From positions 1 to 33,127 of the forward strand of contig DYKZ01000010.1 of assembly GCA_020722345.1 (NCBI GenBank): DNA of 33,127 bases, given 5' to 3'. Within the stretch, counting starts at the first letter, position 1, and every line of letters begins with the position of its first letter. Under the pieces are notes generated by a model. That model was given only the letters and a program-made list of their open reading frames with translations, was not told where the DNA came from and searched no databases. Shown here piece after piece: positions 13,820 through 32,043 of this stretch. This DNA is from Anaerolinea thermophila. GTDB lineage: Bacteria; Chloroflexota; Anaerolineae; Anaerolineales; Villigracilaceae. The translations under genes were made by a program, and so were the position numbers.

Positions 13820-13837
13820 TGGGAAATAAGAAGGATG

Positions 13838-13868
13838 ACTTCCGAGGCCCCCGGCTTCGGAAGTTTTC
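13838..13868 (+). terminator. Rho-independent terminator after pheT
   Basis: Ten-bp stem ACTTCCGAGG (13838-13847) with CTTCGGAAGT (13855-13864; one G-U pair), loop CCCCCGG, then a short T-run. It lies 18 bases after the pheT stop. Confidence 0.75.
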
Positions 13869-13956: not shown

Positions 13957-13967
13957 CGACTGACTCA
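13947..13967 (+). repeat. heptamer array before the GT4 gene
   Basis: GAATGAC, TGACGAC, TGACTCA, the last base being the A of the ATG at 13967. It leaves no room for a ribosome binding site. Confidence 0.6.
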
Positions 13968-15127
13968 TGCGCATTCTTACCGTCCTTACCTACTACCGCC
14001 CTCATACCTCCGGCCTGACCATCTACGCCGAACGGTTGGCGCGCGCCTTTGCCCGGCGCGGCCACCAGGTCACGGTGATGACCGCGCAGTACGACAAGTT
14101 CCTGCCGCGCCAGGAGATGGTGGACGGCGTGAACGTGATCCGCGTCCCGGTGGCTGTGCGCGTCAGCAAGGGCGTCCTCGCCCCGACCTTCGGCCTGGTG
14201 GCCACCAAACTTGTCTGGCAGCACGACGTTGTCCATCTCCACCTGCCGCAGTTCGACGCGCCCGGCGTGGCCTTGCGCGCCCGGCTCTTCGGCAAGCCCG
14301 CCATCCTGACCTATCACTGCGACCTTGACCTGCCGCCCGGCTTGTTCAATCATTTTGTCAACACGGTGGTGCATTTCCAGAATCACATGGCCGGACTACT
14401 GGCCAACCATATCGTGACGTACACGCAGGATTACGCCGACCACTCGCCGTATCTCTCCCGCTACAAGCACAAACTGACGGCTTTTCTGCCGCCGGTGGAA
14501 CTGCCGCCCCCTCTCCCCGGCGCGGCGGAGACGTTTGCCGCTGCCCACCACACTCGCGAGCGGCGTCCGGTCATCGGCATGGCGGCGCGCTTTGCCGCCG
14601 AGAAGGGCGTGGAGGTGCTTCTCGACGCCCTGCCGCAGGTACTGGAGAAGTACCCGAATGCCCAGGTGCTGTTCGCAGGTCAATACGAGAATGTGCTGGG
14701 GGAGCAGGCCTACGCCGAACGGCTGATGCCGCGCATCCGCGAGTACCAGGCGCGGGGTCGGTGGACGTTCCTGGGCGTGCTTTCCCCGCAGGAGATGACC
14801 GCCTTCTACCCCAATCTCGACGCGCTGGTGGTCCCCTCGCTCAATTCCACCGAAGCCTTTGGGCTGGTGCAGGTGGAGGCGATGATGCACAACATCCCCT
14901 GTGTAGCCTCGGCCCTGCCGGGCGTGCGCCGACCGGTGCAGATGCATGGAATGGGCAAGGTCGTGCCGATTGGCAATTCGACGGCGCTGGCAGAGGCGCT
15001 GCTGGAGGTTTTCGCCGAGAAAGAAAAATACCGCTGCGATACAGCGGCGCTGGCAAGACTGTACGACCCTGATACCGTGGCGCAGGAGTACGAGAAGTTG
15101 TTTGAGAAGTTGAGTAGGACGAGATAA
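13967..15127 (+). CDS. GT4-family glycosyltransferase
   Basis: 386-aa GT-B-fold enzyme of family GT4, moving a sugar from a nucleotide donor onto a lipid or glycan acceptor at the inner face of the membrane. The N-terminal domain begins MRILTVLTYYRPHTSGLTIYAE, the usual GT4 opening with a glycine-containing loop. The C-terminal donor-binding domain starts near RPVIGMAARFAAEKGVEVLL and holds STEAFGLVQVEAM, the E-x7-E type signature, with E286 region binding the nucleotide sugar. No membrane segments. The stop codon lies in the loop of the 15114-15140 palindrome, facing the convergent toxin gene. The neighbouring methyltransferases and GT-C proteins suggest surface-glycan work; donor and acceptor are unknown. 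Confidence 0.92.
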   Translation: MRILTVLTYYRPHTSGLTIYAERLARAFARRGHQVTVMTAQYDKFLPRQEMVDGVNVIRVPVAVRVSKGVLAPTFGLVATKLVWQHDVVHLHLPQFDAPGVALRARLFGKPAILTYHCDLDLPPGLFNHFVNTVVHFQNHMAGLLANHIVTYTQDYADHSPYLSRYKHKLTAFLPPVELPPPLPGAAETFAAAHHTRERRPVIGMAARFAAEKGVEVLLDALPQVLEKYPNAQVLFAGQYENVLGEQAYAERLMPRIREYQARGRWTFLGVLSPQEMTAFYPNLDALVVPSLNSTEAFGLVQVEAMMHNIPCVASALPGVRRPVQMHGMGKVVPIGNSTALAEALLEVFAEKEKYRCDTAALARLYDPDTVAQEYEKLFEKLSRTR

Positions 15128-15854: not shown

Positions 15855-16634
15855 ATGCCTGACAAAGATTTCCTCTTTCTCCACCTGCGCGACCTGCCCT
15901 ACTTCCGCGCCCTGATCCGGGCGGTGGAAGCGGCCTTCTACCAGACCCTCGACCTGCCCGCCCCAACCCTGGACGTGGGCTGCGGCGACGGGCATTTCGC
16001 CTCCCTGACCTTCGACCGCTCCATTGACGTTGGCCTCGACCCCTGGCATGCCCCCATCCGCGAGGCGGCCCGGCGCGGGACCTACAGCCTGCTCGTCGAA
16101 GCGGACGCGGCCGCGGCCCCCTTTGCCGAGGCAACCTTCGCCTCCGCCTTCAGCAACTCCGTGCTGGAACACATCCCGCACATCGAAGCCGTGCTGGCTG
16201 ACGTGGCCCGCGTTCTGAAACCGGGCGCGCCGTTCTACTTCTGCGTGCCGAACGAACGTTACCTCTCCGCGTTGTCCATCTCGCGCCTGCTGGGGCGCGG
16301 CTACACGGAATGGTTCCGGCGCATCTCGCGCGTCCATCACGCCGACGGGCCGCAGGTCTGGGAAGCGCGGCTGGAGCGCGCCGGTCTTGAACTGGTACGC
16401 TGGTGGCACTACTTTTCCCCCTCTGCCATGCGCGTGTTAGAATGGGGACATTACTTCGGTCTGCCGTCGCTGATTGCCAAAAAAATGACCGGCAAGTGGA
16501 TCATCGCCCCGGCAAAGTGGAATCTCCGGCTGACGGAACACTTCGTCCGCCGCTATGCTTCCACAGAGCCGGTAGAAGACGGCACATTTACGTTTTATAT
16601 TGCCCGAAAAAAAATCCTCAATCCTCAATCATAA
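15855..16634 (+). CDS. class I SAM-dependent methyltransferase
   Basis: 259-aa Rossmann-fold methyltransferase (Methyltransf_11 type). SAM-binding motif I is LDVGCGDGHFA (about residues 36-46), followed by D57 region (VGLDPW), and the post-motif strand NSVLEHIPHIEAVLADVARVLKPGAPFYF. The C-terminal third is specific to the protein and gives no substrate. The start ATG sits 6 bases after a TATCAT box and has no ribosome binding site, so it may be leaderless. The last codons and stop lie in a heptamer array. It is followed 8 bases later by another methyltransferase, suggesting a pair acting on the same glycan or lipid product. Confidence 0.88.
   Translation: MPDKDFLFLHLRDLPYFRALIRAVEAAFYQTLDLPAPTLDVGCGDGHFASLTFDRSIDVGLDPWHAPIREAARRGTYSLLVEADAAAAPFAEATFASAFSNSVLEHIPHIEAVLADVARVLKPGAPFYFCVPNERYLSALSISRLLGRGYTEWFRRISRVHHADGPQVWEARLERAGLELVRWWHYFSPSAMRVLEWGHYFGLPSLIAKKMTGKWIIAPAKWNLRLTEHFVRRYASTEPVEDGTFTFYIARKKILNPQS
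16614..16634 (+). repeat. heptamer array at the methyltransferase stop
   Basis: ATCCTCA, ATCCTCA, ATCATAA: the array encodes the C-terminal residues LNPQS and provides the TAA. The start codon of the next gene is 8 bases on. Confidence 0.75.
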
Positions 16635-16642
16635 ATTGCTCC

Positions 16643-17356
16643 ATGCCCTTCGACGAAAACTACTTCTCCACCCACACCTACAAAGACGTCTCATTCGCCA
16701 AATACAGCCAGTACTGGTGGTCGAACCGTTTTTACGCCATTATGGCGCGGCGCTACGGGCAGCGCGGGACGCGCCTGCTGGAAATCGGCTCCGGGCTGGG
16801 ACATCTCGTCGGGCAGTTGGAAGATTCGTTCCAAACCTTTGCCTCGGATGTGAACCATTGGGCGCTGAAACGATCGTTGAATGTCGCACGTCAAACGTCG
16901 CATGTCGCCTCGAGCGCGGAGGAACTTCCGTTCAAAGATGGGACGTTCGACGTTGTCATCATCAAGCATGTCGTCGAACATCTTCCTCGCCCGGAGCGCG
17001 CCATTGCCGAGATTGGCCGCGTCACCGCGCCGGGCGGGACGCTCATCCTCGCCACGCCGAACCTTTCATCCCTGCTCAAGCCGTGGAAGGGCGAGCGCTG
17101 GATTGGCTACCAGGACCCGACGCACATCGCGCTCAAACCGCCGGAAGAGTGGCTGGCGATGATGCGCGGCGCGGGCTTCTGCCCCCTGCGCGTCTTCTCG
17201 GATGGCTTCTGGGATGCACCCTATATCAAGTTTGTGCCGAAATCCCTCCAAAAACTGTTTTTCGGCGCGCCGGGGGGCTTTCAGGCCATTACCGGAATCC
17301 CCTTTTTGCCGCTAAAATGGGGGGAAAGCCTGATTGCCATCGCTCGCAAAGAGTAA
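16643..17356 (+). CDS. class I SAM-dependent methyltransferase
   Basis: 237-aa methyltransferase. Motif I is LLEIGSGLGHLVGQL (about residues 43-57), D68 region (ASDVNHWAL) and the motif IV stretch GTFDVVIIKHVVEHLPRPERAIAEI (about 100-124) fit the UbiE/Methyltransf_11 group. ATG 16643 is chosen over upstream in-frame starts because those would lie far inside the previous gene. The residues VARQTSHVAS (about 82-91) come from a heptamer array at 16883-16910, in the loop before the acidic strand. No ribosome binding site precedes the ATG. Substrate unknown; context suggests glycan or lipid modification. Confidence 0.87.
   Translation: MPFDENYFSTHTYKDVSFAKYSQYWWSNRFYAIMARRYGQRGTRLLEIGSGLGHLVGQLEDSFQTFASDVNHWALKRSLNVARQTSHVASSAEELPFKDGTFDVVIIKHVVEHLPRPERAIAEIGRVTAPGGTLILATPNLSSLLKPWKGERWIGYQDPTHIALKPPEEWLAMMRGAGFCPLRVFSDGFWDAPYIKFVPKSLQKLFFGAPGGFQAITGIPFLPLKWGESLIAIARKE
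16883..16910 (+). repeat. heptamer array inside the second methyltransferase
   Basis: GTCGCAC, GTCAAAC, GTCGCAT, GTCGCCT, read in frame. One of the clearest arrays inside a coding region. Confidence 0.75.
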
Positions 17357-17364
17357 ATATCCCA

Positions 17365-17412
17365 ACGTGTGAACGTTCGAACCTGTCAACGTGTAAACGT
17401 ATCAACGTGGAG
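17365..17412 (+). repeat. octamer array before the GT39-like gene
   Basis: Six 8-bp units: ACGTGTGA, ACGTTCGA, ACCTGTCA, ACGTGTAA, ACGTATCA, ACGTGGAG. They fill nearly all of the 60-base gap between methyltransferase stop and the next start. The last unit contains GGAG, 4 bases before the ATG at 17417, so the array itself carries the ribosome binding site of the downstream gene. Confidence 0.8.
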
Positions 17413-17416
17413 ATGA

Positions 17417-19606
17417 ATGGAAGAGCCAAGCGTTCTTGATTATCTCAAATCGAAACTGAAGTTCTGGGAAAAGGGGAACAAGATTGAAATTCCCTCCGAA
17501 GAGGAAGCGGGAACCGCGGCGGCCGAACCTGTTCAGCCGCCGGAACAGCCCTCGGTCTCGGCGGAGCAACTCGAAACACCGGCAGCCGAGCCGCTAAAAC
17601 GTCCGCCGTTCGATTGGACGAAATTCCCCTGGCGCGCCCTCCTGGCGCTGGTCTTCATCCTCTTCGCCCAACGGACGTTCGAGCCGTCCGAGAACCGCGC
17701 TGCCGCTCCCGGCTTGTTCTTGTATGCCATCGGCCTGGCCTGGCTGGTGCTGGCCTTCCTGCGCGGGGAGTGGAAACCGGCCGATTTGGCGGAGGCAGGC
17801 GCCGGGTCCGATACGCTGCGGGCGCGAGCCATCCCCCTGGCGCTGGCGGGCGTCTTATCCGTTGTGGCATTTGCTTTCCTGGGCAACAACATGTTCACGC
17901 TGCTCAATGTCACCCTCTGGCTGGCGGCGCTGGCCTGTTTCATCTGGGCGTTCTGGGTTGAACAACCGGATCGCGAACCATGGTGGCAGCGCGCCTGGCG
18001 TACCCTGGCAAGCAGCGAATGGCGCATCTCCATCACCCGCCGGAGCCTGCTCGTGCTGGCCGTGATCGGCCTGGTGGTCTTCTTCCGCGTCCACAATCTC
18101 GGCGGCGTGCCGTCCGAGCCGTTCAGCGACCACGCCGAGAAGATCCTGGATGTGTACGATGTGACCCAGGGACAGACGAGCATCTTCTTCCCGCGCAATA
18201 CCGGGCGGGAGGCCATCCAGATGTACCTGACCGTAGCGGTGGCCTGGCTGTTTGGCACGGGGCTGTCGTTCCTGAGCCTGAAGATCGGCACGGTGCTGTG
18301 CGGGCTGGCGACCCTGCCTTATATCTACCTGCTTGCCAAAGAATTGGGGGGCAAACGGGTTGCTTTGCTGGCCCTGCTCTTCGCCGGGATCGCCTACTGG
18401 CCGAATGTCATTTCACGCGCCGGCCTGCGCTTCCCGCTCTATCCGCTGTTCGTCGCGCCGACGCTTTTTTATCTCCTCCGCGGCCTGCGGACGCGCAACC
18501 GCAACGATTTCATCCTCTCCGGCATCGCCCTCGGCATCGGCTTGCACGGCTACAGCCCCATCCGCATCCTGCCGTTCGTGGTGGTGATTGCCATCCTCCT
18601 GTACCTGCTGCACCGCCAGTCGCAGGGAGCGCGCAAGCAGGCAGTTATCTGGTTGGTCATCCTGGCTTCGGCCTCGCTGGTGGTCTTCCTGCCGTTGCTG
18701 CGTTTATGGCTCGAATACCCCGACCTGTTCGGCTACCGGGCATTTTCGCGCCTCGGCAGCACCGAAACGCCGCTCCCCGGCCCGGCCTGGCAGGTTTTCT
18801 TCTCGAACCTGTGGAACGCCCTCAAAATGTTCAACTGGGACGACGGCGAGATCTGGGTCCATTCGGTGACTCACCGCCCGGCGCTGGACGTGGTCACGGG
18901 AGCGCTGTTCCTGGCGGGCGTCGTCCTGCTGCTTGTCCGCTACGTCCGCTCCCGGAACTGGACCGACCTGTTCCTCCTGCTTTCGGTGCCGCTGCTACAA
19001 CTGCCGTCCATCCTCTCGCTGGCTTATCCCGGCGAGAACCCGGCTCTCAACCGGGCGGGCGGCGCGCTGGTGCCGGTTTTCGTCATCGTGGCGCTGGCGC
19101 TGGATGGACTGTGGACCGGCCTCCGGTCCCGCTTGACCGGACGGGGCGGCGCGATCCTGACCTGGAGCCTGATGCTGGTCCTTGCCGCCTGGTCCTCCTT
19201 CCAGAATTATGATCTGGTCTTCCGGCAGTATGCCCGCCAGTTCGACGGCGGGGCGTGGAATTCGTCCGAGATGGGCGCGGTCATCGAGCAGTTCGGCCTG
19301 ATCTACGGCGAAACGGACACGGTCTGGATTGTGCCGTATCCTTACTGGGTGGACACGCGCCTGCCGGGCGTCTGGGCGGGCATCCCAAACCGCGATTTTG
19401 CTGCCTGGCCGGAGCAGTTGGAGACTACACTGGAGGTCTCCGGGCCGAAGTTGTTCATTCTGAATGTCGAAGACGCCTCCAGCCTGGCGCGCTTGCAGGA
19501 ACTCTATCCGCAGGGGACATGCAGCCGTTTTGTCTCGGAAACCGGGCTGGAAGGCAAGGATTTCCTGATTTACTTTGTCCCTCCGGCAGCCGCAGGTGAA
19601 CAATGA
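17417..19606 (+). CDS. GT39-like GT-C membrane glycosyltransferase
   Basis: 729-aa integral membrane protein. Residues about 1-75 are soluble, acidic and Pro-rich (cytoplasmic tail). About ten or more hydrophobic helices follow, with the first long outside loop holding GGVPSEPFSDHAEKILDV (about 230-247). That acidic SDHAE segment is the place of the catalytic acids in GT-C enzymes such as ArnT and protein mannosyltransferases, which use polyprenyl-phosphate sugars. A C-terminal outside domain of about 130 residues ends VEDASSLARLQELYP…FLIYF. Stop and next start overlap as ATGA. It probably transfers sugars outside the membrane to lipid, glycan or protein. Confidence 0.85.
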   Translation: MEEPSVLDYLKSKLKFWEKGNKIEIPSEEEAGTAAAEPVQPPEQPSVSAEQLETPAAEPLKRPPFDWTKFPWRALLALVFILFAQRTFEPSENRAAAPGLFLYAIGLAWLVLAFLRGEWKPADLAEAGAGSDTLRARAIPLALAGVLSVVAFAFLGNNMFTLLNVTLWLAALACFIWAFWVEQPDREPWWQRAWRTLASSEWRISITRRSLLVLAVIGLVVFFRVHNLGGVPSEPFSDHAEKILDVYDVTQGQTSIFFPRNTGREAIQMYLTVAVAWLFGTGLSFLSLKIGTVLCGLATLPYIYLLAKELGGKRVALLALLFAGIAYWPNVISRAGLRFPLYPLFVAPTLFYLLRGLRTRNRNDFILSGIALGIGLHGYSPIRILPFVVVIAILLYLLHRQSQGARKQAVIWLVILASASLVVFLPLLRLWLEYPDLFGYRAFSRLGSTETPLPGPAWQVFFSNLWNALKMFNWDDGEIWVHSVTHRPALDVVTGALFLAGVVLLLVRYVRSRNWTDLFLLLSVPLLQLPSILSLAYPGENPALNRAGGALVPVFVIVALALDGLWTGLRSRLTGRGGAILTWSLMLVLAAWSSFQNYDLVFRQYARQFDGGAWNSSEMGAVIEQFGLIYGETDTVWIVPYPYWVDTRLPGVWAGIPNRDFAAWPEQLETTLEVSGPKLFILNVEDASSLARLQELYPQGTCSRFVSETGLEGKDFLIYFVPPAAAGEQ

Positions 19607-22600
19607 TGAACGCAGAGCCTATGGATAAGCCCAAAGAAAAATTTACCTGGCTGTACGATATTTTGCTCCTGCTCGTGCTGGCGCTGGCGGCCTTTTTGCG
19701 TTTCACCGGCAGCGGCTGGGGCGAACTCCAGCACCAGCACCCGGACGAGTTGTTCCTGACCTCCGTCACGTACAACATCGCCCTGCCCGGCACGGACCCG
19801 GCGGTGCTGGGCGCGCCGCCCACCGCCGCGACGGCTCCCTGGCGCGCCAATTACCCGACCGTCTATCACGACTGCACAGAATGGGGCGGTTATTTCAGCA
19901 CGGCCTGCTCGCCGCTCAACCCGCACAACCGCGGCGACGCTTTCTATACCTACGGCGACCTGCCTATTTTCATGGTGCGGACTCTGGCCGAATGGAGCGG
20001 CCAACTGGACAACCTGAAACTCTTCGGGCGGCAGATGTCGGCCGCGGCGGATCTGGTCACCGTCTTCCTGCTCTATCTGACCGCGGCGCGTCTCTATAAC
20101 CGGCGCGTGGCCCTGCTGGCGGCGGCTTTCTCGGCCCTGGTCGTCATGCAAATCCAGCAGTCGCATTTCTACACCACCGACAACTTTGCCGTCACCTTCA
20201 TGACCCTGGCGGCGTATCTGGCAGTCTTGATTGTGACGGAAAGAGAACCGGCTGGTGACCCTGAGTCTCTTCCTCTTCGACATTCCGCCTTACACGCCGC
20301 GCTTCGCAGCCGCCTCTTCTGGTTCAGCGTTCTCTTCGGGATTGCCTTCGGGATGGCGATGGCCTGCAAGGTCAATGCCGCGCCGCTGGCCTTGCTCTTG
20401 CCGCTGGCGTTCTTCATCCGTTCCTGGAAACGCGGCGAGGCGCTGTCCCATGAAAAATGGACGCTCATCCTGCTCTCGCTGTTGGCAGGCGGCCTCTTTG
20501 CCATCCTGTCGTTCCGCGTCTTCCAGCCGTATGCTTTCGACGGTTTGGGGCTGAATCCGGCTTGGCTGGCAAATATCCGTGAACAGCGGGCGCAGGCCAC
20601 ACCCAACTCCGACCTGCCCTGGAACCTGCAATGGGCGCGGCGGACGCATCTCTACTCCTTCGAGAACCTGACCGTTTGGGGACTCGGCCTGCCGCTCGGT
20701 ATCCTTTCCTGGATCGGTTTCCTGTGGATGGGATGGCGCAGCCTCAAAGGCGAGTGGCGTCAGCACCTCCTGCTTTGGTCGTGGACGGCGCTCTACTTCG
20801 CTTGGCAGTCGCTCCAGTACAACCCCACCATGCGCTACCAACTGCCCATCTACCCCTTCCTGGCGATGATGGCGGCCTGGTTTATCATCTGGCTATGGGA
20901 TAAAGGGAAACAAACGACCGATCGAAAAGTGTGGTCCATCGTCTATCGTCTATCGTCTGCTGTTGCCGGCATTTTTGTGCTTCTGGCGACGGCGGGCTGG
21001 GCGTTTGCCTTTGCGAGCACCTACACCCGCGACGAGCCGCGCATTGCCGCATCGGAGTGGATTTACCAGAACGTTCCCGGTCCCATCAACCTGCAAATCC
21101 AGGCCCCGGAAGGAGGGGAATATCAGCAGCCCCTGCCTTTCCTGACCGGGATACAGGTCCAGGCCGGAATCCCCTACCAGTCGGCGTTCGTGGCCTACGA
21201 AGACGGCGCCTTGACCTCGGTCCTGCTCCTGCACGTGGCCGATTCTGCCCTCTCCGGCACCCAGACCCTCATCCTGCGCCTCGCCACCGCCCCGGACCCG
21301 CTGCCGGAGCAAATCCTCGCCTCGGCCTCCGTAACGGCGGACTTTGCCCCCCGCGCCGACCCGCGCGGCGAACCTGTCAGCCTGATCTTCGATTCACCGG
21401 CGGCCCTGGTCAACGGGCAGACGTATTTCCTCGTCTTCGAGACCTCCGGCGGCTCTCTGACCCTCTCCGGCTCGGCAGTGGTCAACGAGACCGATTACGA
21501 TTTCACCCTGCCCTTCCGCATTAACGGCTACGACGGCTTCGGCGGCCTCTATCGCGGCGACCTGAATCTGCAAGTCTACTGGCCTGATAACGCCGATAAA
21601 CTGGCGCGCTTCCTGTACACGCTGGATGAAGGCGATTACATCCTCATCCCCACCAATCACCAATACGCCCAGATCACGCGCCTGCCGGAGCGTTACCCGC
21701 TGACGACCGAATACTACCGCGCCCTCATCGGCTGCCCGGCGGAGGAGAACATCATCCGGTGCTACCGCGTGGCCGAACCGGGCATGTTCCAGGGCGAACT
21801 CGGCTTCGACTTGGTGGCGGTGTTCACCAACTACCCGACGCTGGGGCCGCTGGTCATCAACGACCAGGCGGCGGAGGAAGCCTTCACTTTCTACGACCAT
21901 CCCAAGGTACTCATCTTCAAGAAAAGCGCCGACTACGACCCGGCGCGAGTGCAAGCCCTCCTCGGCGCGGTGGACTTGAGCAGCGTTGTCCAGCTCCTGC
22001 CCGGCCAGGCCGACGATTACAAAGGCCTGATGCTCTCGGAAGAACAGGCCGCCATCCAGCAGGCAGGCGGCACCTGGTCGGACCTCTTCGACCGCGCCGC
22101 CCTGTTGAACAAGTATCCCGGCCTGGGGCTGGTGGTCTGGTACCTGCTCATCTTTCTCGTTGGACTGTTCGCCTTCCCCGTCGTCCGCGCTGCCCTGCCC
22201 GGCCTGGCCGATAACGGTTATCCCCTGGCGCGCGCCGCCGGTCTGTTGCTGTGGGCCTGGCTGGTCTGGCTGGCCGGTTCGAACGGAATCCCCTTCAGCG
22301 GGACGACCATCGGCATCGCCCTCGGGCTGGTAGCGCTGGTTGGGGCGTGGCAGGCCTGGCGTCAACGCGCCGCGCTGAAAGAAGAGTGGGGCCGCCGCTG
22401 GAAGTTGTACCTGTTCCTCGAACTCCTGTTCCTGTCCTTCTTTCTGCTCGACCTGTTCATCCGCCTCGCCAACCCCGACCTGTGGCATCCATCCAAAGGC
22501 GGCGAGCGCCCGATGAACATGGCTCAGTTGAACGCCGTGCTGAGAAGTACGATCTTCCCGCCCTACGATGCCTGGTTCGCGGGCGGTTACATCAACTACT

Positions 22601-24627
22601 ATTACTTCGGCAATGTGATTGTCGGCACACCGGTCAAATTGCTCGGCATTGTGCCTTCGATTGCCTTCAACTTCATCCTGCCGACCCTCTTCGCCATCGT
22701 GGCGACTTCGGCCTTCTCGATCGGCTACAACCTGCTCAAGCCCCGCCTGCCGGACCCGGAACGCTGGTCGCTGAAGACCGAGCCGCGTGCCCTGCTGACG
22801 GGGTTCAGCGCCTCGGCGGCGATGGTCTTGCTCGGCAATCTCGGCGTGGTGCGCCTGTTCGTGCTAGGCTTCCAGCGTAACGCCGCGCCCGGCGGCGTCA
22901 TCGAAGGGGCGAACCTGTTCGAGAAAATCTGGTGGACGCTCAAGGGCTTTTTCCTGACCCTGGGCGGGCTGAACCTGCCCTATGCAAGCGGCGACTGGTA
23001 CTGGTTCGCCAGCCGCATCTTCCCGTGGTCGGAACTATATCCGCACGATACTTTCTACGAATTTCCAGCCTTTTCTTTCCTCTACTCTGACTTGCACGCC
23101 CACGTCATCGCCTACATGCTGACCCTGCTGGTCATCGCCTGGATCATCTCGCTCCTGGCCTCGAAAGCAAAGTGGGGGAGCAGGCTCGACGCCGCGCTGG
23201 GTTTCTTCCTCGGCGCGCTGGTGATTGGTTCCCTGAAACCGACCAACACCTGGGACTTTTACACCTATTTTGTCTTTGGACTGGTCGGCCTGTTCTATGC
23301 GACCGTCAGGCATGGAGAGGCAGGTTGGGTGTCCTCCAAAGCCCCGCAGTGGGCCAGACGCCTCTTGCTGGCAGGCGGGGCGACGCTCCTCGCCGCCGGG
23401 CTGGCGATGTTGTTCTTCCAACCGTTCACGCACTGGTTCGGGCAGGCCTATTCTTCCATTAGCGCCTGGAGAGGTCTGCGCACTCCGCTGACCACCTATC
23501 TCATCCAGTGGGGCATGTTGCTCTTCTTCATCGTTGCTTGGATGGCCTGGGAAACGCGCCAATGGCTGGCCGAGACGCCCGTCTCCGCCCTGCGTAAGTT
23601 GCGTCCTTACCGCGAAGTCATCTTTGCTGCACTTATCATCGTCCTGCTGGTGCTGGCCATCCAGCAAGTCTGGGTGGGCCTTCCCACCCAAACCCCGCCC
23701 TGGAAGGGCATGACCATTCTCTGGCTGGCCCTGCCGCTGGCGCTCTGGGCAGGGGTGTTGATGGTTTTCCGCCCCGGCCTCTCGGACGCCAAACGGCTGG
23801 CGCTCTTCATGACCGGCACCGGCCTCCTGCTGACCATGTTTGCCGAGTTGTATGTCGTTGAGGGCGATGTGGGGCGCATGAACACGCTCTACAAGTTCGG
23901 CGTCCAGTCCTGGGTGCTGCTGGCCCTCAGCGCCGCGGCCGCCTTTGGCTGGCTGCTGGCCGAAGTCCGCAAGTGGCTGCCCGGCTGGCGCGCCTTCTAC
24001 CAGGCGACGGCCACCCTGCTCGTCACGGGCGGGGCGCTCTTCCTGCTCATCGCCGGCCTGGACAAGATGCGCGACCGATGGGTCCCCGAAGCGCCGCACA
24101 GCCTCGACAGCATGGAATACATGCAGTACGCCCTCTACGCCGAGTACGGGCGCACCTTCAGCGCCGCCGAGGATTACCGCGCCATCCGCTGGATGCAGGA
24201 GAACATCGAAGGCTCGCCGGTCATCGTCGAGGCCGCGCCGGCCGGCATCCAGTACACCTGGTTCTCGCGTTACTCCATCTATACCGGCCTGCCGGCTGTG
24301 ATCGGCTGGCAGTGGCACGAACAGCAGCAGCGCGTTTATTTCCAGCCCCAGGTCATCGAGCGCGGCCAGGAGGTGGACGCCTTCTACGCTACCACCGACG
24401 TCAACGCCGCCCTGGCTTTTTTGGAAAAATACGACGTGCGCTACATCATCGTCGGCCAGTTGGAGCGCGCCAAATATGCCCCCGGCGCGCCGAGCGGCCC
24501 CGTGCTGGAGGGACAGCCGGATGGCTTGCTAAAGTTCGAGCAGTACGACGGCCTCCTTTGGCAGGAAGTGTACCGCGACGGCGAGACGGTCATCTACGAA
24601 GTGCCTGCGGATGGGGTGTTGCCATGA
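19603..24627 (+). CDS. GT-C glycosyltransferase fused to YYY (DUF2298) membrane protein
   Basis: 1674-aa polytopic membrane protein with three parts. Residues 1-480: GT-C module, with HPDE at 46-49 in the first outside loop as the likely catalytic acid site. Residues about 485-810: an outside region with beta strands (GPINLQIQAP, SLIFDSPAALVNGQTYFLVFETSGG). Residues about 836-1674: a full YYY module matching the separate 869-aa protein at 25648 along its length, with YYYFG at 999-1003, DLHAH at 1163-1167, NTWD, RMNT at 1425-1428 and a C-terminal RYIIVGQLER. A heptamer array (20935-20955) is translated in a linker between helices. Its start overlaps the previous stop (ATGA) and its stop the next start, so four genes are coupled. 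The YYY function is not established; the acidic loop suggests a GT-C-like enzyme. Confidence 0.87.
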   Translation: MMNAEPMDKPKEKFTWLYDILLLLVLALAAFLRFTGSGWGELQHQHPDELFLTSVTYNIALPGTDPAVLGAPPTAATAPWRANYPTVYHDCTEWGGYFSTACSPLNPHNRGDAFYTYGDLPIFMVRTLAEWSGQLDNLKLFGRQMSAAADLVTVFLLYLTAARLYNRRVALLAAAFSALVVMQIQQSHFYTTDNFAVTFMTLAAYLAVLIVTEREPAGDPESLPLRHSALHAALRSRLFWFSVLFGIAFGMAMACKVNAAPLALLLPLAFFIRSWKRGEALSHEKWTLILLSLLAGGLFAILSFRVFQPYAFDGLGLNPAWLANIREQRAQATPNSDLPWNLQWARRTHLYSFENLTVWGLGLPLGILSWIGFLWMGWRSLKGEWRQHLLLWSWTALYFAWQSLQYNPTMRYQLPIYPFLAMMAAWFIIWLWDKGKQTTDRKVWSIVYRLSSAVAGIFVLLATAGWAFAFASTYTRDEPRIAASEWIYQNVPGPINLQIQAPEGGEYQQPLPFLTGIQVQAGIPYQSAFVAYEDGALTSVLLLHVADSALSGTQTLILRLATAPDPLPEQILASASVTADFAPRADPRGEPVSLIFDSPAALVNGQTYFLVFETSGGSLTLSGSAVVNETDYDFTLPFRINGYDGFGGLYRGDLNLQVYWPDNADKLARFLYTLDEGDYILIPTNHQYAQITRLPERYPLTTEYYRALIGCPAEENIIRCYRVAEPGMFQGELGFDLVAVFTNYPTLGPLVINDQAAEEAFTFYDHPKVLIFKKSADYDPARVQALLGAVDLSSVVQLLPGQADDYKGLMLSEEQAAIQQAGGTWSDLFDRAALLNKYPGLGLVVWYLLIFLVGLFAFPVVRAALPGLADNGYPLARAAGLLLWAWLVWLAGSNGIPFSGTTIGIALGLVALVGAWQAWRQRAALKEEWGRRWKLYLFLELLFLSFFLLDLFIRLANPDLWHPSKGGERPMNMAQLNAVLRSTIFPPYDAWFAGGYINYYYFGNVIVGTPVKLLGIVPSIAFNFILPTLFAIVATSAFSIGYNLLKPRLPDPERWSLKTEPRALLTGFSASAAMVLLGNLGVVRLFVLGFQRNAAPGGVIEGANLFEKIWWTLKGFFLTLGGLNLPYASGDWYWFASRIFPWSELYPHDTFYEFPAFSFLYSDLHAHVIAYMLTLLVIAWIISLLASKAKWGSRLDAALGFFLGALVIGSLKPTNTWDFYTYFVFGLVGLFYATVRHGEAGWVSSKAPQWARRLLLAGGATLLAAGLAMLFFQPFTHWFGQAYSSISAWRGLRTPLTTYLIQWGMLLFFIVAWMAWETRQWLAETPVSALRKLRPYREVIFAALIIVLLVLAIQQVWVGLPTQTPPWKGMTILWLALPLALWAGVLMVFRPGLSDAKRLALFMTGTGLLLTMFAELYVVEGDVGRMNTLYKFGVQSWVLLALSAAAAFGWLLAEVRKWLPGWRAFYQATATLLVTGGALFLLIAGLDKMRDRWVPEAPHSLDSMEYMQYALYAEYGRTFSAAEDYRAIRWMQENIEGSPVIVEAAPAGIQYTWFSRYSIYTGLPAVIGWQWHEQQQRVYFQPQVIERGQEVDAFYATTDVNAALAFLEKYDVRYIIVGQLERAKYAPGAPSGPVLEGQPDGLLKFEQYDGLLWQEVYRDGETVIYEVPADGVLP
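20935..20955 (+). repeat. heptamer array inside the GT-C/YYY fusion
   Basis: TCCATCG, TCTATCG, TCTATCG, in frame, encoding SIVYRLS at the start of a hydrophobic helix after a charged loop. Confidence 0.7.
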
Positions 24628-25013
24628 CCGAATTCATCTACCACATTACCTCCCGGACCTCCTGGTCTGCCGCGCAGGAAGCGGGTTTCTACACCGCCCC
24701 CTCGCTGGAGGCGCAGGGCTTCATCCACTGCTCCAAAGCAGACCAGGTGCTGCGGGTAGCCAACGCCATCTACCGCGGCGCGACCGGCCTGGTGCTGCTG
24801 GAGATTGATTTAACGGCGCTCCGGCCCGAGGTCCGCTGGGAGGCGGGGACGGATACCGTTCGTGCCGTGAACACCGGCGGCGCGCCGGCGCGAGACGGCA
24901 AACCGGACGAGTCCTTCCCGCACGTGTACGGCGTGCTGAACCTGGAGGCTGTCCGCCGCGTCCTCGATTTCCCGCCCGATGAGGACGGTCTCTTCCGGAG
25001 TTTGCCGCAGTGA
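24624..25013 (+). CDS. DUF952 family protein
   Basis: 129-aa soluble protein matching DUF952 by its opening YHITSRTSWSAAQEAGFYTAPSLEAQGFIHCSKADQV and the later VRWEAGTDT and FPHVYGVLNLEAV. Family members are small single-domain proteins of the ADP-ribosyltransferase-like shape; their reaction is not established. The ATG overlaps the fusion stop (ATGA) and the stop overlaps the GTG of the acetyltransferase, so it is coupled to the YYY genes. It is probably a passenger or regulator, not a membrane enzyme. Confidence 0.85.
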   Translation: MTEFIYHITSRTSWSAAQEAGFYTAPSLEAQGFIHCSKADQVLRVANAIYRGATGLVLLEIDLTALRPEVRWEAGTDTVRAVNTGGAPARDGKPDESFPHVYGVLNLEAVRRVLDFPPDEDGLFRSLPQ

Positions 25014-25636
25014 ATATTTGCATCCGCCCGTCCCAGCCTGCCGATTCCGCCTTGGCGGTGAAACTCATCCATCTCTCGATGGGCAGCGAGATGGATTGGC
25101 TCTTCGGGCAGGAGGCCGGCTATCCGGCGGAGGCGGTTATGGCGGCGCTCTATGCCCGGCGCGGCAACCGTTTCAGTTGGGATCTGTGCTGGGTGGCCGA
25201 AGCGGATGGGCAGGCCGTTGGCTTGCTGCTGGCCTTTGCAGGGCGGCGGCTGCCTGTGTTGGAGGCTGTGACCGGTCTGCACCTGCTTGGCATCTTTGGC
25301 CTGCGGGCCACCTTGCGCCTGCTGCGCAAACAGCGCCTCTACGGCGACCTGGTGGAAGCCCGCCCGGACGAGTTCTACGTCAGCAACGTGGGCGTCCTGC
25401 CGGAGTTCCAGGGGCGCGGCATCGGCGGCGCTCTGCTAGACCTTGCCGAGGAGCAGGCGCGGGCAGCAGGGCTGGGCAAGTGTTCCCTGCTTGTTGTCCA
25501 GGACAACCCGGCGCTGCGCCTCTACCGTCGGCGCGGCTATGAAATTGTGACCTCCTACAGCTTCCCGGTTCCCGAAATTGACCACGGCTTTTACCGCATG
25601 GTCAAGCAACTCCAACAACTAACGACTAACGACTGA
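25010..25636 (+). CDS. GNAT family N-acetyltransferase
   Basis: 208-aa GCN5-related acetyltransferase. The acetyl-CoA site is seen as VSNVGVLPEFQGRGIGGALLDLAEEQARAAGL (about 123-154), with the QGRGIGG loop and the conserved NPALRLYRRRGYEIV near the C-terminus. The start is GTG at 25010 (GTGA overlap with DUF952). The last four residues and stop come from a heptamer array. The acyl acceptor is unknown. Coupled position between two YYY genes may mean acetylation of a surface sugar, but GNAT proteins are too diverse to say. Confidence 0.88.
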   Translation: MNICIRPSQPADSALAVKLIHLSMGSEMDWLFGQEAGYPAEAVMAALYARRGNRFSWDLCWVAEADGQAVGLLLAFAGRRLPVLEAVTGLHLLGIFGLRATLRLLRKQRLYGDLVEARPDEFYVSNVGVLPEFQGRGIGGALLDLAEEQARAAGLGKCSLLVVQDNPALRLYRRRGYEIVTSYSFPVPEIDHGFYRMVKQLQQLTTND

Positions 25637-25647
25637 CGACTAACCCC
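25613..25647 (+). repeat. heptamer array between the GNAT and YYY genes
   Basis: CAACAAC, TAACGAC, TAACGAC, TGACGAC, TAACCCC. It encodes the C-terminal residues of the acetyltransferase, supplies its TGA (25634) and ends at the base before the ATG of the next gene. No ribosome binding site remains. Confidence 0.85.
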
Positions 25648-28257
25648 ATGCTCTCCTTCCTCTCCTGGTATCTCCTCCTCACCCTGCTTGGCTGGCTGAC
25701 CTTCCCGCTGGCATGGCGGCTCTTCCCGGCCCTGGCCGACCGCGGCTTCAGCCTGGCGCGCGCCCTCGGTTTGCTGCTGTGGGGCTGGCTGTTCTGGATG
25801 CTGACCTCCCTGGGCGTTACCCACAACGACGGCGGCGGGCTTTTACTCACCTTCCTGCTGGTGGCAGGTCTGAGCGTCGCCGCGCTGTGGAGGATCGACT
25901 CGTCCACTGTCCACGCCCCATCGTCCATCGTCGCATGGCTTAAAACGAACCGCCGCCTGGTCATCACCGTCGAGGCGCTCTTCTTCCTCGCCTTCGCCGC
26001 CTGGACATTCGTGCGCGCTTCCAACCCAAACATCGAAACGGCAGGCGGCGAGAAGACCATGGAACTGGCCTTCATCAACTCCATCCTGCGCTCGCCGACC
26101 TTCCCGCCGCGCGACCCCTGGATGTCGGGCTACTCCATCTCGTATTACTACTTCGGCTACGTGATGACCGCCATGCTGGCCAAGGCGACTGCCACGCCCG
26201 GCGCGGTGGCCCACAACCTGATGCTGGCGCTGGTCTTTGCCCTCAGCGCTGTCGGCGCGTATGGCATCTTGTACAACCTGCTGGCGGCCGGGCGCAAGCA
26301 TCGTTCCTCGGCCGCCAATGTTCACTCGCCACTCGTAAATCGTGAATCGTCCCTCGGTTTGCCCTTGCTCGGTCCGCTTTTCCTGCTTTTCGTTTCCAAC
26401 GCGGCCGGCTTCCTCGAAGTACTCCACCGCCGCGGTTTCTTCTGGAGCGGCCAGCCCGGCGACTCGAACCTGTGGACTGCGCTCGGACGCCTGGCACACC
26501 CGAATTTGCAAGCCTACAACTTCTGGACCTGGCTCGACATCCTGCATCTCAACATGCCGCCCAGCCAGCCGCCCGCCTGGGCGCCCGACCGTTACATTTG
26601 GTGGTGGCAGGATTCGCGCGTCATCCAGGATTACGACCTGGCAGGCAACTTCCGCGAGATCATTGACGAGTTCCCGGCCTTCTCCTACATGCTCGGCGAC
26701 CTGCACCCGCACGTGCTGGCCATGCCCTTCGTCCTGCTGGTCGCCGCCGCCGCTCTCAACATCTTCTTCGGCGGCTGGAAGGGCAGCCTCGACCTGCGCT
26801 TTGCCCGCCTCCCCCTCGCCCCGCTTCACCTCGCTGCCGGCGCGCTCCTGCTCGGCGGACTGGCCTTCCTGAACACCTGGGACATCCTGGTCGGATTCGC
26901 CCTGCTGGCTGGCGCTTACGTCCTCGCGCGCGCCCTCGCCTCCGGCTGGACCTGGCAGCGGCTGGCCGACCTCTTCCTCTTTGGCCTCCCGCTCGGACTG
27001 CTTGCCATCCTGCTCTACCTGCCGTTCTATCTCGGCTTTGCCTCGCAGGCGGGCGGCATCCTCCCCAATCTCGACGCGCCGACGCGCGGCGCCCACCTGT
27101 GGGTCATGTTCGGTCCACTCTTTGCACCGTTGTTTGCCTACCTCGTCTTCCTGCGGCGCGGACAAAAATTGCCGGCGCGCTGGAAGACCGGCTTCGGGCT
27201 AGGTCTTGGCTTGGCCTTCTTTCTGTGGCTTTTCTCGTGGGCGCTCGTTTTGCTGGCGCAACTCAAACTGCCTGATTTCGCCGCCGGTTACCTGCAAATG
27301 CAGGGCTTTACCAGCCCTGCCCTCTTCTTCGGCGCGGCCACATTCAAGCGCCTTGGCTCCATTGCCAGCCTGCTGACCCTCCTGGCTTTGCTCATCCCGG
27401 CTATTGCTTTCCTGGCGCGCCCGCAGCGCATATCGCAGGCTGAACCGGAGCAGGAAGTCCACTCATCCGTCACTCCTTACTTCCCCATCCTCCTCGTTCT
27501 TCTCGGCGCATTGCTCGTCCTGACCCCGGAGTTCGTCTTCCTGCGCGACCTGTTCGGCAACCGCATGAACACCATCTTCAAGTTCTACTACCAGGCCTGG
27601 ATGCTGTGGAGCCTGGCGGCGGCCTTTGGCGCGGCGGTGATGCTCCGCCAACTGCGCCGCGCCTGGAAATGGGTGCATGCCGGCGGCCTGGCGCTGATGC
27701 TGATGGTCGGATTGGCCTTCCCGGTCTTCGCCCTGCCCAACAAAACGGACGACTTCCAATTCCCTGTCTTCGCGCAGGTGTTGGACGCGGCGCGCGCGGC
27801 AGGCGACCTGTCCTCCCTGCGCACCGCCGCCTCGGTCTGGACCCTGGACGGGGCGCAGTTGTTCCACCGCCAGTATCCCGACGATGCCGCGGCGGCGGAT
27901 TGGTTGTCCCTGGCGCCGTTTGGTGTCATTGCCGAAGCGGTCGGCGGTCAATACAGCGACTACGCCCGCATGTCGGCCTACAGCGGCCTGCCGGCTGTCG
28001 TCGGCTGGATTGGCCACGAAGACCAGTGGCGCGGCACCTTCGACGAGCAGCGTCAGCGCGGTGAGTGGGATATCCCCGCCCTCTACCAGACCAACAACTG
28101 GGACGAAGCGCGCTCCATCATCGAGAAATACAACATCCGCTACGTTGTCGTTGGCACGCTGGAGCGTAACGCCTACCGCGTCAACGAACTCAACTTCCAG
28201 CGTAACCTGGCGGAAGTCTTCCGCTCCGGCGATGTTGTCATTTATCAGGTGCCGTAG
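25648..28257 (+). CDS. YYY (DUF2298) polytopic membrane protein
   Basis: 869-aa membrane protein with many hydrophobic helices, similar end to end to residues 836-1674 of the fusion protein at 19603. Shared motifs: GGEKTMELAFINSILRSPTFPP before YYYFG (166-170), NTWD, DLHPH (351-355), RMNTIFKF from R639, and a C-terminal RYVVVGTLER. The paired acids in the first outside loop (GGEK and PPRDPW) stand where GT-C enzymes hold catalytic residues; that this is a glycosyltransferase is an inference. Two heptamer arrays are translated: 25899-25933 and 26323-26350, both in loops between helices. The epimerase-like gene begins 7 bases after the stop. Confidence 0.88.
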   Translation: MLSFLSWYLLLTLLGWLTFPLAWRLFPALADRGFSLARALGLLLWGWLFWMLTSLGVTHNDGGGLLLTFLLVAGLSVAALWRIDSSTVHAPSSIVAWLKTNRRLVITVEALFFLAFAAWTFVRASNPNIETAGGEKTMELAFINSILRSPTFPPRDPWMSGYSISYYYFGYVMTAMLAKATATPGAVAHNLMLALVFALSAVGAYGILYNLLAAGRKHRSSAANVHSPLVNRESSLGLPLLGPLFLLFVSNAAGFLEVLHRRGFFWSGQPGDSNLWTALGRLAHPNLQAYNFWTWLDILHLNMPPSQPPAWAPDRYIWWWQDSRVIQDYDLAGNFREIIDEFPAFSYMLGDLHPHVLAMPFVLLVAAAALNIFFGGWKGSLDLRFARLPLAPLHLAAGALLLGGLAFLNTWDILVGFALLAGAYVLARALASGWTWQRLADLFLFGLPLGLLAILLYLPFYLGFASQAGGILPNLDAPTRGAHLWVMFGPLFAPLFAYLVFLRRGQKLPARWKTGFGLGLGLAFFLWLFSWALVLLAQLKLPDFAAGYLQMQGFTSPALFFGAATFKRLGSIASLLTLLALLIPAIAFLARPQRISQAEPEQEVHSSVTPYFPILLVLLGALLVLTPEFVFLRDLFGNRMNTIFKFYYQAWMLWSLAAAFGAAVMLRQLRRAWKWVHAGGLALMLMVGLAFPVFALPNKTDDFQFPVFAQVLDAARAAGDLSSLRTAASVWTLDGAQLFHRQYPDDAAAADWLSLAPFGVIAEAVGGQYSDYARMSAYSGLPAVVGWIGHEDQWRGTFDEQRQRGEWDIPALYQTNNWDEARSIIEKYNIRYVVVGTLERNAYRVNELNFQRNLAEVFRSGDVVIYQVP
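25899..25933 (+). repeat. heptamer array inside the YYY gene (first)
   Basis: CTCGTCC, ACTGTCC, ACGCCCC, ATCGTCC, ATCGTCG, in frame, encoding SSTVHAPSSIVA in the loop between the third and fourth hydrophobic segments. Confidence 0.75.
26323..26350 (+). repeat. heptamer array inside the YYY gene (second)
   Basis: CACTCGC, CACTCGT, AAATCGT, GAATCGT, in frame, encoding HSPLVNRES in a cytoplasm-like loop before a hydrophobic helix. The fusion paralogue has no such array at the matching place. Confidence 0.75.
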
Positions 28258-28263: not shown

Positions 28264-29205
28264 ATGATTCTCCTCACCGGCGCCACCGGCTTCATTGGAC
28301 GTTCCCTCACCCGCCACCTGGTGGAGAGCGGGCAGCGCGTCCGCATCCTCCTGCGTCCCTCGCCGCGCACCCCGAACCTGCCGGTTGGCGTGCCGGTGGA
28401 GGTAGCGGTCGCCAGCCTGGCGGACGCGCGCGGCCTGCGCGCTGCCCTGCGCGGCGTTCGGGTGGTCTATCATCTGGCAAGCGGTGAGGCAGAAGGCGGA
28501 CGCGCCAACCTCCAGTCAGTGGACATTGAAGGCACGCGCAATCTCGTCGAGGCGGCGGTAGATGCCGGGGTGGAGCGATTTTTCTACCTCAGCCACCTCG
28601 ACGCTGACCGCGCCTCTGCCTTCCCGGTGCTGAAGGCCAAGGGCATTGCCGAAGAATTCATCCGCAAATCGGGTCTGGCTTACACCATCCTGCGCGGCGC
28701 GATCCTCTTTGGCCCAGGCGATACCTTCACCTCCGGGCTGGCGATGCTGCTGGCCATGTCCCCCGGTCTCCTACCCCTGCCCGGCGGCGGCAAGACGCTT
28801 GTCCAGCCTCTTTGGGTGGAAGATCTGGCGGTATGCCTGACCTGGGCGCTTGACAACCCCGCCACGCTGAACCAGACCTTTGAAATTGGCGGCAGCGAGG
28901 CGCTGACCTTGCGCCAGGTGGTGGAAGCAATCATGGAAGTTACCCGCCGGCCGCGCCTGCTCATCCCGGGCGGCGCGCCGCTGATGCGCGCCCTGACCGT
29001 GACCATGGAGGCCGCCTTCCCGTCCTTCCCCGCCTCAGTATTCTGGCTCGATTACCTGGCCGTGGACCGCACCTGCCCGGTGGACGCCATCCCGCGCCTC
29101 TTTGGGCTGATGCCGGCCCGCTTTACCTCCCGCCTCGATCACCTGCGGGGCGTCAAATGGGGACGCGAAGCCTTCCGGCGGCTGTTCACCCGCCCGCAGC
29201 AATAG
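28264..29205 (+). CDS. NAD(P)-binding atypical SDR (NmrA/NDUFA9-like epimerase family)
   Basis: 313-aa Rossmann protein starting MILLTGATGFIGRSLTRHL, the nucleotide loop TGATGFIG of extended/atypical short-chain dehydrogenases. V-V-Y-H-L-A at about 70 and YTILRGAILFGPGDTF (about 139-154) match the group. The usual catalytic Tyr-x3-Lys is not at its expected place (…SHLDADRASAFPVLKAKG), as in atypical members that bind nucleotide without classical dehydrogenation. The last 80 residues resemble the C-terminal part of complex I NDUFA9-like proteins. It is last in the glycan block, 6 bases after the YYY gene. Confidence 0.85.
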   Translation: MILLTGATGFIGRSLTRHLVESGQRVRILLRPSPRTPNLPVGVPVEVAVASLADARGLRAALRGVRVVYHLASGEAEGGRANLQSVDIEGTRNLVEAAVDAGVERFFYLSHLDADRASAFPVLKAKGIAEEFIRKSGLAYTILRGAILFGPGDTFTSGLAMLLAMSPGLLPLPGGGKTLVQPLWVEDLAVCLTWALDNPATLNQTFEIGGSEALTLRQVVEAIMEVTRRPRLLIPGGAPLMRALTVTMEAAFPSFPASVFWLDYLAVDRTCPVDAIPRLFGLMPARFTSRLDHLRGVKWGREAFRRLFTRPQQ

Positions 29206-30531: not shown

Positions 30532-30624
30532 CGCAGCCTCCATCCTTGATGCAGACAGTTTAGCATAGGTTTTTGTTTGCATGCAATCGCATTTTTATCC
30601 TATCCCCGCCGTTTCGGCATCTCC

Positions 30625-32043
30625 CTACGGATGCGGGAACGCCTCTTCCAGCCATTGCAGGGGGTTGACTTGTACGCCGTTGGCCCAGACTTCCCAGTGG
30701 AGGTGAGGCCCCGTCACCCGCCCGGTGGCGCCGATCTTGCCAATCAGTTGCCCGGCTGTGACTGTCTCTCCCTCCGTCACGTACATTTCATCTTGATGCC
30801 AGAAACCGCTGTAAATTCCCCAGCCGTGGTCAATCACTGTGGCGTTGCCGCGCACGGTGAGCGGACCGACGAACACAACCACTCCCGCGGCGGGCGCATA
30901 GATGTCGAAGGGGTGCGCCTTCGAGCAGATGCCGTAGTCCACCCCGGTGTGGAAGTAGATGAAATCGCTGCCGTTATAGGAGCGCCGGTTCCCGTACATC
31001 GAGCGGATACAGAACTCGGAATCCACAGGCAATTGGAACAACCCATCCCAATATTTTTCCGGTGTGACGGTGGCTGTGAGCGAGAAAAGCCACTCGTTTT
31101 CAGGCTCCGTAATGGCCGGGTCAATTGTCGAAGGATCAACTTGCAGGATGGGATCCTGACGGAAGTGTCCATCCTGCACCAGCACCATCTGCTCGAAGGA
31201 CTGGACAGTTCCATCACTCAGCGTCACATCCAACCGCAGCGGATGCAGGCCGGGATCGGTCATCGCATGCACGCCCTGGAGCGCCACCCAGGCGCCGCCC
31301 TCGGTTTGGAAGAATTGCAGGGGTCGGTCCACCAGGAGGCCGCTCAGGGTGGCCTCGGAGGCCAGGGACACGCTGATCTGCGCCGTCTGCCCCTGGGTGA
31401 GGGGCAGGGGATCCAGGCTGGCGGAGGAAATGGCGGCGGGCAGCCCCGCGCCCGGACCGGCATCCTGCGCGCCCGGAACGAAGAGCGGATCCCCTGGCAG
31501 CACGGCAGCCGTCCGGTCCAAACCGTTGGTCTGGGCGAGGCTCCACAGGCTGGAACCCTGCCGGACGGCCAGTTCCAGCAGCGTTTCACCCGTTGCCAGC
31601 GAGACGCGTCCACCGGATACGGGTTCGGTCTCGGGCTGGAGCAAGATCAGCCCATAACCGGCGTAAAGTTCCATCGGGCTGACGATGCGGTTCAATTCAA
31701 TCAGGATGGCCGGGTCAACCCGGTTCAGGCGGCTCAAACTGCGCAGGGTTTCTCCGAGCGGCATGGGCTGGATGCTCAACACCCCGCTCAGGTTTTCCAG
31801 CCCGGGGATGACGAGCCGGTCTCCCACGTAGATGTTCTGGCCGGCAAGATTGTTGTACGAGACGAGGCTATCCAGGCTGACGTTGAAGCGGATGGCAATA
31901 TCCCAGAGCGTATCTCCCTCCTGGACGATGTACACCGGGCCGGCAGGCGGCTCCGGCGTCTGCGCCGCGGCAGGGAAGGCCGCCAGGATCAGGCCGATGG
32001 CAGCCGACAAGTTGGCAATGACAGAGACCAAGCGCCTATTCAT
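30625..32043 (-). CDS. LysM-M23 peptidoglycan endopeptidase
   Basis: 472-aa exported protein. Signal peptide about 1-27 (AFPAAA-Q). LysM 1 is clear at 37-81 (VYIVQEGDTLWDIAIRFNVSLDSL); two weaker LysM-like segments follow at about 85-135 and 145-195. A beta-rich linker of about 120 residues then leads to the M23 domain (about 335-472): H365 and D369 in HTGVD, H416 in FWHQ, H447 and H449 in HLHW. It resembles NlpD/EnvC-like cell-wall hydrolases or their activators. The start overlaps the DUF192 stop by 8 bases, so they are one transcript. Confidence 0.93.
   Translation of the reverse strand: MNRRLVSVIANLSAAIGLILAAFPAAAQTPEPPAGPVYIVQEGDTLWDIAIRFNVSLDSLVSYNNLAGQNIYVGDRLVIPGLENLSGVLSIQPMPLGETLRSLSRLNRVDPAILIELNRIVSPMELYAGYGLILLQPETEPVSGGRVSLATGETLLELAVRQGSSLWSLAQTNGLDRTAAVLPGDPLFVPGAQDAGPGAGLPAAISSASLDPLPLTQGQTAQISVSLASEATLSGLLVDRPLQFFQTEGGAWVALQGVHAMTDPGLHPLRLDVTLSDGTVQSFEQMVLVQDGHFRQDPILQVDPSTIDPAITEPENEWLFSLTATVTPEKYWDGLFQLPVDSEFCIRSMYGNRRSYNGSDFIYFHTGVDYGICSKAHPFDIYAPAAGVVVFVGPLTVRGNATVIDHGWGIYSGFWHQDEMYVTEGETVTAGQLIGKIGATGRVTGPHLHWEVWANGVQVNPLQWLEEAFPHP

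Follow-up and report, generated by a model that had tools for sequence, protein, structure and literature searches.

The window analysed here, a whole stretch of 33,127 bp from Anaerolinea thermophila, encodes two modules of the YYY family, and on the strength of a predicted model we consider YYY quite likely to be a GT-C-class membrane glycosyltransferase of STT3/AglB-type plan that takes part in the outward-facing assembly of a lipid-linked glycan. This joint explanation brings together the computed family membership, predicted fold, orientation, conservation, gene linkage and old duplication of the modules. The window is an entire contig (C50) of a 3.07 Mb assembly in 398 contigs, and the following features of the cluster were identified.

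13837-13865: strong terminator-like hairpin (13 pairs), 3' of the phenylalanyl-tRNA synthetase genes and just 5' of the GT4 gene
13967..15127 (+): GT4-type cytosolic glycosyltransferase, 386 aa, first gene of the cluster (Glycos_transf_1, 97 bits)
15855..16634 (+): methyltransferase MT1, 259 aa (Methyltransf_11)
16403..17356 (+): methyltransferase MT2, 317 aa (Methyltransf_23/11, residues 119-259)
17417..19606 (+): stand-alone PMT_2 GT-C protein, 729 aa (PF13231, 42.3 bits)
19603..24627 (+): 1674-aa fusion of a GT-C half (residues 1-838) and a YYY/DUF2298 module (residues about 836-1674)
24624..25013 (+): DUF952 small protein (PF06108, 95 bits)
25010..25636 (+): GNAT acetyltransferase, 208 aa (PF00583)
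25648..28257 (+): stand-alone YYY/DUF2298 GT-C protein, 869 aa (Pfam, NCBIfam, AlphaFold model and structure comparison)
28264..29205 (+): SDR/NmrA-like protein, 6 bp 3' of the YYY gene

The start codon of the fusion overlaps the stop of the PMT_2 gene, the stop of the fusion in turn overlaps the start of DUF952, and from the PMT_2 gene through the SDR gene all starts and stops overlap or lie at most about 12 bp apart. Because of these tight or overlapping genes and the terminator-like hairpin upstream, the cluster may form a single transcription unit beginning at about 13967. The true start of MT2 is probably downstream of its overlap with MT1. A promoter scan of the window gave no excess over shuffles, and no Rfam family or tRNA was found in the window.

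YYY is an already catalogued family (TIGR03662 Chlor_Arch_YYY; PF10060, DUF2298) to which the catalogue assigns no function, and our literature search found no functional study of DUF2298/TIGR03662 and no biochemical data. As an earlier note on this DNA had read from the letters, the 1674-aa protein joins a GT-C glycosyltransferase to a complete YYY module (DUF2298 at residues 883-1440, 363 bits in Pfam, cut-off 27.8), and the 869-aa protein repeats that module alone (351 bits, same cut-off). In NCBIfam, TIGR03662 matched the fused module with 471 bits and the 869-aa protein with 452 bits (cut-off 300). The two modules showed 31-32% identity in BLASTP segments (E 2e-27), and they are the only YYY modules in the whole genome.

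TIGR03662 was over its cut-off in 102/151 sampled Chloroflexota genomes, usually with a short frame of about 800 aa next to a long one of about 1450-1800 aa; in one genome set the long frame reached 2300-2700 aa and held two YYY copies. By this distribution, Chloroflexota that have the family normally carry it as such a long and short pair. The arrangement that the earlier note had singled out is thus not special to the window, being a catalogued one that occurs in about two thirds of the sampled Chloroflexota genomes: the pair scores far above the curated cut-offs and has the same arrangement as most relatives, and no tested feature distinguishes it from the family. All 80 named YYY loci were from Chloroflexota, mainly Anaerolineae. 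Beyond this phylum we found YYY in Haloferax volcanii, Methanosarcina acetivorans, a Halarchaeum plasmid, in which the copy runs off the record end so that its context is uninformative, and a Pseudobutyrivibrio plasmid; no YYY relatives were found in the viral contigs searched. In the Pseudobutyrivibrio plasmid pNP95 (L134:8462-10717) the DUF2298 gene, possibly acquired laterally, lies within a polysaccharide cluster with GT2, O-antigen ligase, glucosyltransferase and nucleotide-sugar epimerase genes, a setting independent of Chloroflexota. The stand-alone YYY gene of one genome (G150, L051:4167-6101) runs out of frame after about residue 490, as a pseudogene or through an assembly error.

The motifs located in the two window proteins are as follows.

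19738..19749 (+): HPDE, residues 46-49, first outer loop of the GT-C half, invariant in 40/40
22126..24510 (+): YYY module of the fusion, TIGR03662 match, residues 842-1636
22498..22509 (+): GGER of the fused module, loop-1 Glu
22597..22611 (+): YYYFG of the fused module
23089..23103 (+): DLHAH of the fused module, Asp-x-His at the start of predicted TM4
23245..23256 (+): NTWD of the fused module
23875..23886 (+): RMNT of the fused module
26044..26055 (+): GGEK of the 869-aa protein, E135, loop 1
26143..26157 (+): YYYFG of the 869-aa protein
26698..26712 (+): DLHPH of the 869-aa protein, D351/H353/H355, N-terminal end of predicted TM4
26872..26883 (+): NTWD of the 869-aa protein, N409
27562..27573 (+): RMNT of the 869-aa protein, R639 and N641, followed by K645, outer end of predicted core TM12
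27859..28254 (+): C-terminal outer domain of the 869-aa protein, residues 738-869, holding E763, H790 and LER

All motifs listed in the earlier note were present in both copies and conserved across 124 modules, so that their sharing is far beyond chance; the membership motif YYYxG occurs as YYYFG in both window modules. Fourteen positions were identical in 124/124 aligned modules (E135, P153, Y166, Y167, G170, R324, E341, D351, H353, N409, R639, N641, K645 and E839), with D156 in 122/124 and H355 in 123/124.

An AlphaFold (AF2) model of the 869-aa protein was built from 124 relatives and reached pLDDT 92.5 and pTM 0.94. The predicted YYY structure is GT-C, so the outcome that the earlier note had named as refuting, a model lacking this topology, did not arise; the note had made no outright claim that the YYY module itself is GT-C. 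In the comparison with solved structures, the top 41 entries were all GT-C-fold proteins or their C-terminal domains, spanning Z 15.0 to 7.4, and the next entry, an unrelated fold, had Z 5.3. The best match was STT3 (Z 15.0, rmsd 6.8, 465 residues), followed by ALG12 (Z 14.4), DPY19 (14.0), AglB (13.4), Pmt4 (12.5), ArnT (12.4) and AftA (12.2). A Z of 15 is moderate for a helical protein, and the sequence identity to the GT-C matches was 8-14%. Foldseek concurred (DPY19 6.8e-5, AftA 2.3e-4), but its TM-scores were low (0.2-0.3) and the rmsd large, and the assignment was based instead on the order of the VIA Z scores and the gap in them. The structural match spans residues about 93-869, leaving the first three helices as extra; the core has 13 helices after merging of helix segments, the same number as stated for STT3/AglB/PglB. 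Residues 738-869 matched the C-terminal domain of AglB-S2 (Z 10.1, rmsd 2.5, 111 residues), and this domain also aligned with Chloroflexota STT3 by profile (P 1.8e-6; domain alone 7.8e-5). When PDB chains were searched by sequence with profiles of YYY and of GT-C, only low-complexity or chance matches and no GT-C came up, so the fold is not placeable by sequence alone. By its similarity to the modelled protein, the fused YYY module presumably has the GT-C fold as well. The novel part would be this GT-C assignment of YYY from the predicted model, the arrangement itself being ordinary. Pfam may already place some such DUF families under GT-C; if DUF2298 is included, the novelty is lower still.

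The N-terminal half of the 1674-aa protein matched PMT_2 (PF13231) at residues 143-215 with 33.6 bits (Pfam, cut-off 26.1), and gave 27 bits with TIGR04154, for which the cut-off is 450. Its model (pLDDT 89.4) matched AglB (Z 32.5), STT3 (29.7), Pmt4 (29.4) and ArnT (26.8). From this model and the YYY fold, the 1674-aa protein is predicted to be two GT-C units in tandem, and the invariant HPDE of its first half is a candidate for carrying the catalytic acid. In the PF13231 match, the strong structural match and the loop-1 HPDE, this half is like the GT39/GT83-type PMT_2 enzymes Pmt4 and ArnT, but differs from them in an additional beta-rich outer domain and in being joined C-terminally to a second GT-C module. 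The beta-rich domain, at residues about 495-628 (21085-21486), follows the helices of the GT-C half and precedes its C-terminal domain; it has weak Foldseek matches to PHR and laminin LF beta-sandwich domains and is possibly a carbohydrate-binding insert. In addition to what the earlier note had described, the first protein of the interval (17417-19606) is also a PMT_2 GT-C protein.

Helix boundaries and orientation were assigned by hand from the YYY model, with alternating helices and the C-terminal domain outside. Lysine and arginine made up 17.8% of the inner loops and 6.7% of the outer loops. Of the 60 positions with a conservation of 95% or more, 56 were on the outer face (23 in outer loops, 16 in outer helix halves and 17 in the C-terminal domain) and four on the inner. 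The invariant acid E135 (124/124) is in the first outer loop of the core, which is a GT-C hallmark, and the loop acid and His pair that had been proposed as active-site candidates held up as such, E135, D351 and H353 being invariant and on the outer face, and H355 nearly invariant.

In AfAglB the metal is held by Asp47 of loop 1 and by Asp161-x-His163 at loop 2 (PMC8342417). YYY has an invariant G-G/T-E135 in loop 1 and an invariant Asp351-x-His353 at the predicted start of TM4, whose order and placing parallel the AfAglB metal motifs, in alignments that are non-significant (E 0.22, 0.29). In a low-confidence profile alignment, with no threshold, E135 falls on the first-motif Asp of STT3 loop 1; a non-significant sub-region alignment puts D351 on the Asp of the STT3 DHH motif, and the full-length version puts the second motif elsewhere. 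Our leading hypothesis is that E135 and Asp351-x-His353 correspond to the AglB metal site. E135 would then likely be the catalytic or metal-binding acid, Asp351-x-His353 likely the second metal/donor motif, and Arg639 and Lys645 likely phosphate contacts.

We counted the same-strand neighbours of the long frame at 70 loci, and these counts are lower bounds. The short YYY gene was found in at least 67/70, an Agl23-like gene in at least 50/70, PMT_2 in at least 47/70, GT4 and MT1 each in at least 37/70, MT2 in at least 15/70, DUF952 in at least 24/70 and GNAT in at least 6/70. As a control, the MetH, MTHFR, PanK and PheST genes of the window had no match in the 70 neighbourhoods. The SDR had no same-strand homologue among them and is probably therefore outside the conserved unit; DUF952 and GNAT appear to be variable passengers. 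The DUF952 gene, which sits between the fusion and YYY genes, recurs in these 24 related clusters though its family is without evident glycan link. The mixed glycan-assembly operon proposed in the earlier note thus stood for its GT4, methyltransferase and GT-C genes, which are conserved neighbours, and did not stand for the acetyltransferase and the SDR, which at 6/70 and 0/70 say little on the pathway. What had been observed in the sequence is confirmed, and the interpretation is partly supported; to call the glycan system an undescribed one was overstated, though the cluster may encode such a system.

In the source genome the Agl23-like gene (41% identity) is on a separate contig (C61:615-2312), so that the window leaves the common gene order after YYY. 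The best gene matching TIGR03663, annotated as flippase-activity-associated Agl23, was within about 6 kb of YYY in 30/66 listed genomes, and the Agl23-like genes that adjoin YYY in Anaerolineae score under the TIGR03663 cut-off. In most Anaerolineae loci (L053-L132) the gene after YYY is such a divergent relative of 560-590 aa, and these relatives possibly form a separate Agl23 subfamily. Agl23 is a separate family from YYY, a genomic partner conserved beside it across Chloroflexota, and both families also occur in Haloferax and Methanosarcina. In two cultured strains GT4 is preceded by a GDP-mannose-dehydratase-type gene. The YYY cluster shares with multi-component transmembrane glycosylation systems (GT-A, GtrA-type flippase and GT-C) the logic of outer-face sugar addition by GT-C, but its own components are a GT4, four to five GT-C modules and an Agl23-like protein; the window has no gene of the GtrA family, of which the genome has one elsewhere.

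The nearness of YYY to STT3/AglB raises the reading that YYY is an oligosaccharyltransferase or ligase, which passes a finished glycan from lipid-pyrophosphate to protein by GT66-like chemistry. YYY and STT3/AglB/PglB are alike in the predicted fold with 13 core helices, in the C-terminal outer domain, where the similarity reaches the sequence level, and in the loop-1 acid, and the second motif has the same Asp-x-His form as in AfAglB; YYY differs in its three additional N-terminal helices and long EL2, and in having neither WWDYG nor PF02516. This oligosaccharyltransferase signature, WWDYG, was present in 22/27 true STT3 proteins of Chloroflexota and in 0/124 YYY modules and 0/40 GT-C halves (164 sequences), and PF02516 had no match in the proteins of the window or in the genome, which rules out membership of GT66 by motif. 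The distribution at first sight favours the reading, as the source genome has YYY and lacks STT3, and STT3-family matches were found in 57/84 genomes of one Chloroflexota order (that of G082) and YYY in 0/84. However, this complementary distribution is clade-bound and counts only once or twice, and Haloferax and Methanosarcina carry both families; a replacement of STT3 by YYY was set aside for these reasons. We regard the oligosaccharyltransferase reading as unlikely. The donor is typically a lipid-PP-oligosaccharide in GT66 and a lipid-P-monosaccharide in GT39/53/57/83 (PMC10920833).

A GT-C fold alone is no proof of transfer, since Agl23, which scores as GT-C-like, is reported to flip lipid-linked sugars. 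The Haloarcula protein is a putative hexose-P-dolichol flippase that suppresses loss of yeast rft1 and in proteoliposomes moves lipid-linked Man5GlcNAc2 across the membrane (PMC11182771), and TIGR03663-like proteins match PMT_2 in some loci and adjoin YYY. YYY might accordingly be a GT-C-fold translocator or scramblase of lipid-linked sugars and not a transferase, but conservation in a translocator might be expected along the path and on both sides, and the invariant charged set of YYY (Glu, Arg, Asp-x-His and Lys) is confined to the outer face, as in transferases, which makes this reading very improbable. As in multi-component systems that have been proposed to bind the acceptor with separate proteins (PMC8035078), the YYY modules could also be non-catalytic and serve the neighbouring GT-C enzymes by binding the acceptor or as a scaffold. 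Pseudoenzymes usually lose the residues concerned, yet some 20 residues, many of them charged or polar, are invariant across the two anciently separated paralogue clades of YYY, and we think a non-catalytic role very improbable.

These clades were seen in a tree of 82 YYY modules (FastTree, local supports). The fused copies form one group (support 99), the stand-alone copies are separate from it, and the label changes on the tree are near the minimum, a value never reached in shuffles; in the double-YYY frames both copies nest in the fused group. The split of the stand-alone copies from the rest has a support of 56 only, and the placing of two long outgroup branches is unsure. By this tree, the fused form had already diverged from the stand-alone form when the sampled classes split. 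The YYY pair of the window appears orthologous to both paralogue groups, and a local duplication would not be its origin.

Returning to the preferred reading of YYY as a GT-C-class glycosyltransferase, each module would have a GT-C core of 13 helices, preceded by three additional N-terminal ones and followed by a C-terminal domain on the outside. The 1674-aa protein would be two tandem enzymes, a PMT_2-type GT-C followed by YYY, and the 869-aa protein a YYY paralogue that split off long ago and has evolved separately since. The lipid-linked glycan may be begun on the cytosolic side by GT4 together with a nucleotide-sugar enzyme, the methyltransferases may modify it, and the glycan or lipid-P-sugars may cross the membrane, perhaps with the Agl23-like protein, after which the PMT_2, fusion and YYY proteins would carry out outer-face sugar additions or the final glycan transfer. 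It is from the computed results that we infer the enzymatic activity, donor type, residue roles, step order and acceptor. More speculatively, YYY could be a distinct GT-C family with a metal-binding site of Glu and Asp-x-His that acts on glycans linked to lipid-pyrophosphate; together with Agl23 it would make up the outer-face half of a glycoconjugate pathway that Chloroflexota and Archaea share, and the fusion would channel a lipid-linked product between its two active sites. We consider this extended version doubtful.

As a feature of this window alone the YYY pair is ordinary, and the family assignment is the useful and moderately interesting part. Little is known of the envelope glycans of Chloroflexota. 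For a widespread family of Chloroflexota and Archaea without function, the assignment supplies an enzyme class that can be tested, names candidate catalytic residues and points to a conserved Agl23-like partner backed by experimental data. The prediction is testable because archaeal hosts with genetics carry both YYY and Agl23 genes.

Some further features were noted in the window and the genome. The ORF at 30577-32049 (+) was rejected as a shadow ORF, the real gene being an M23/LysM protein on the opposite strand. Short, degenerate repeats (GACTGACGACTAACC-like and AACGTGT-like units) lie between genes at 13940-13966, 17355-17416 and 25600-25647, preceding the GT4, PMT_2 and YYY genes respectively. 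Elsewhere in the same genome (G000:C287:33799-36441), a 1698-aa frame with two PMT_2 matches represents a second, different tandem GT-C fusion.
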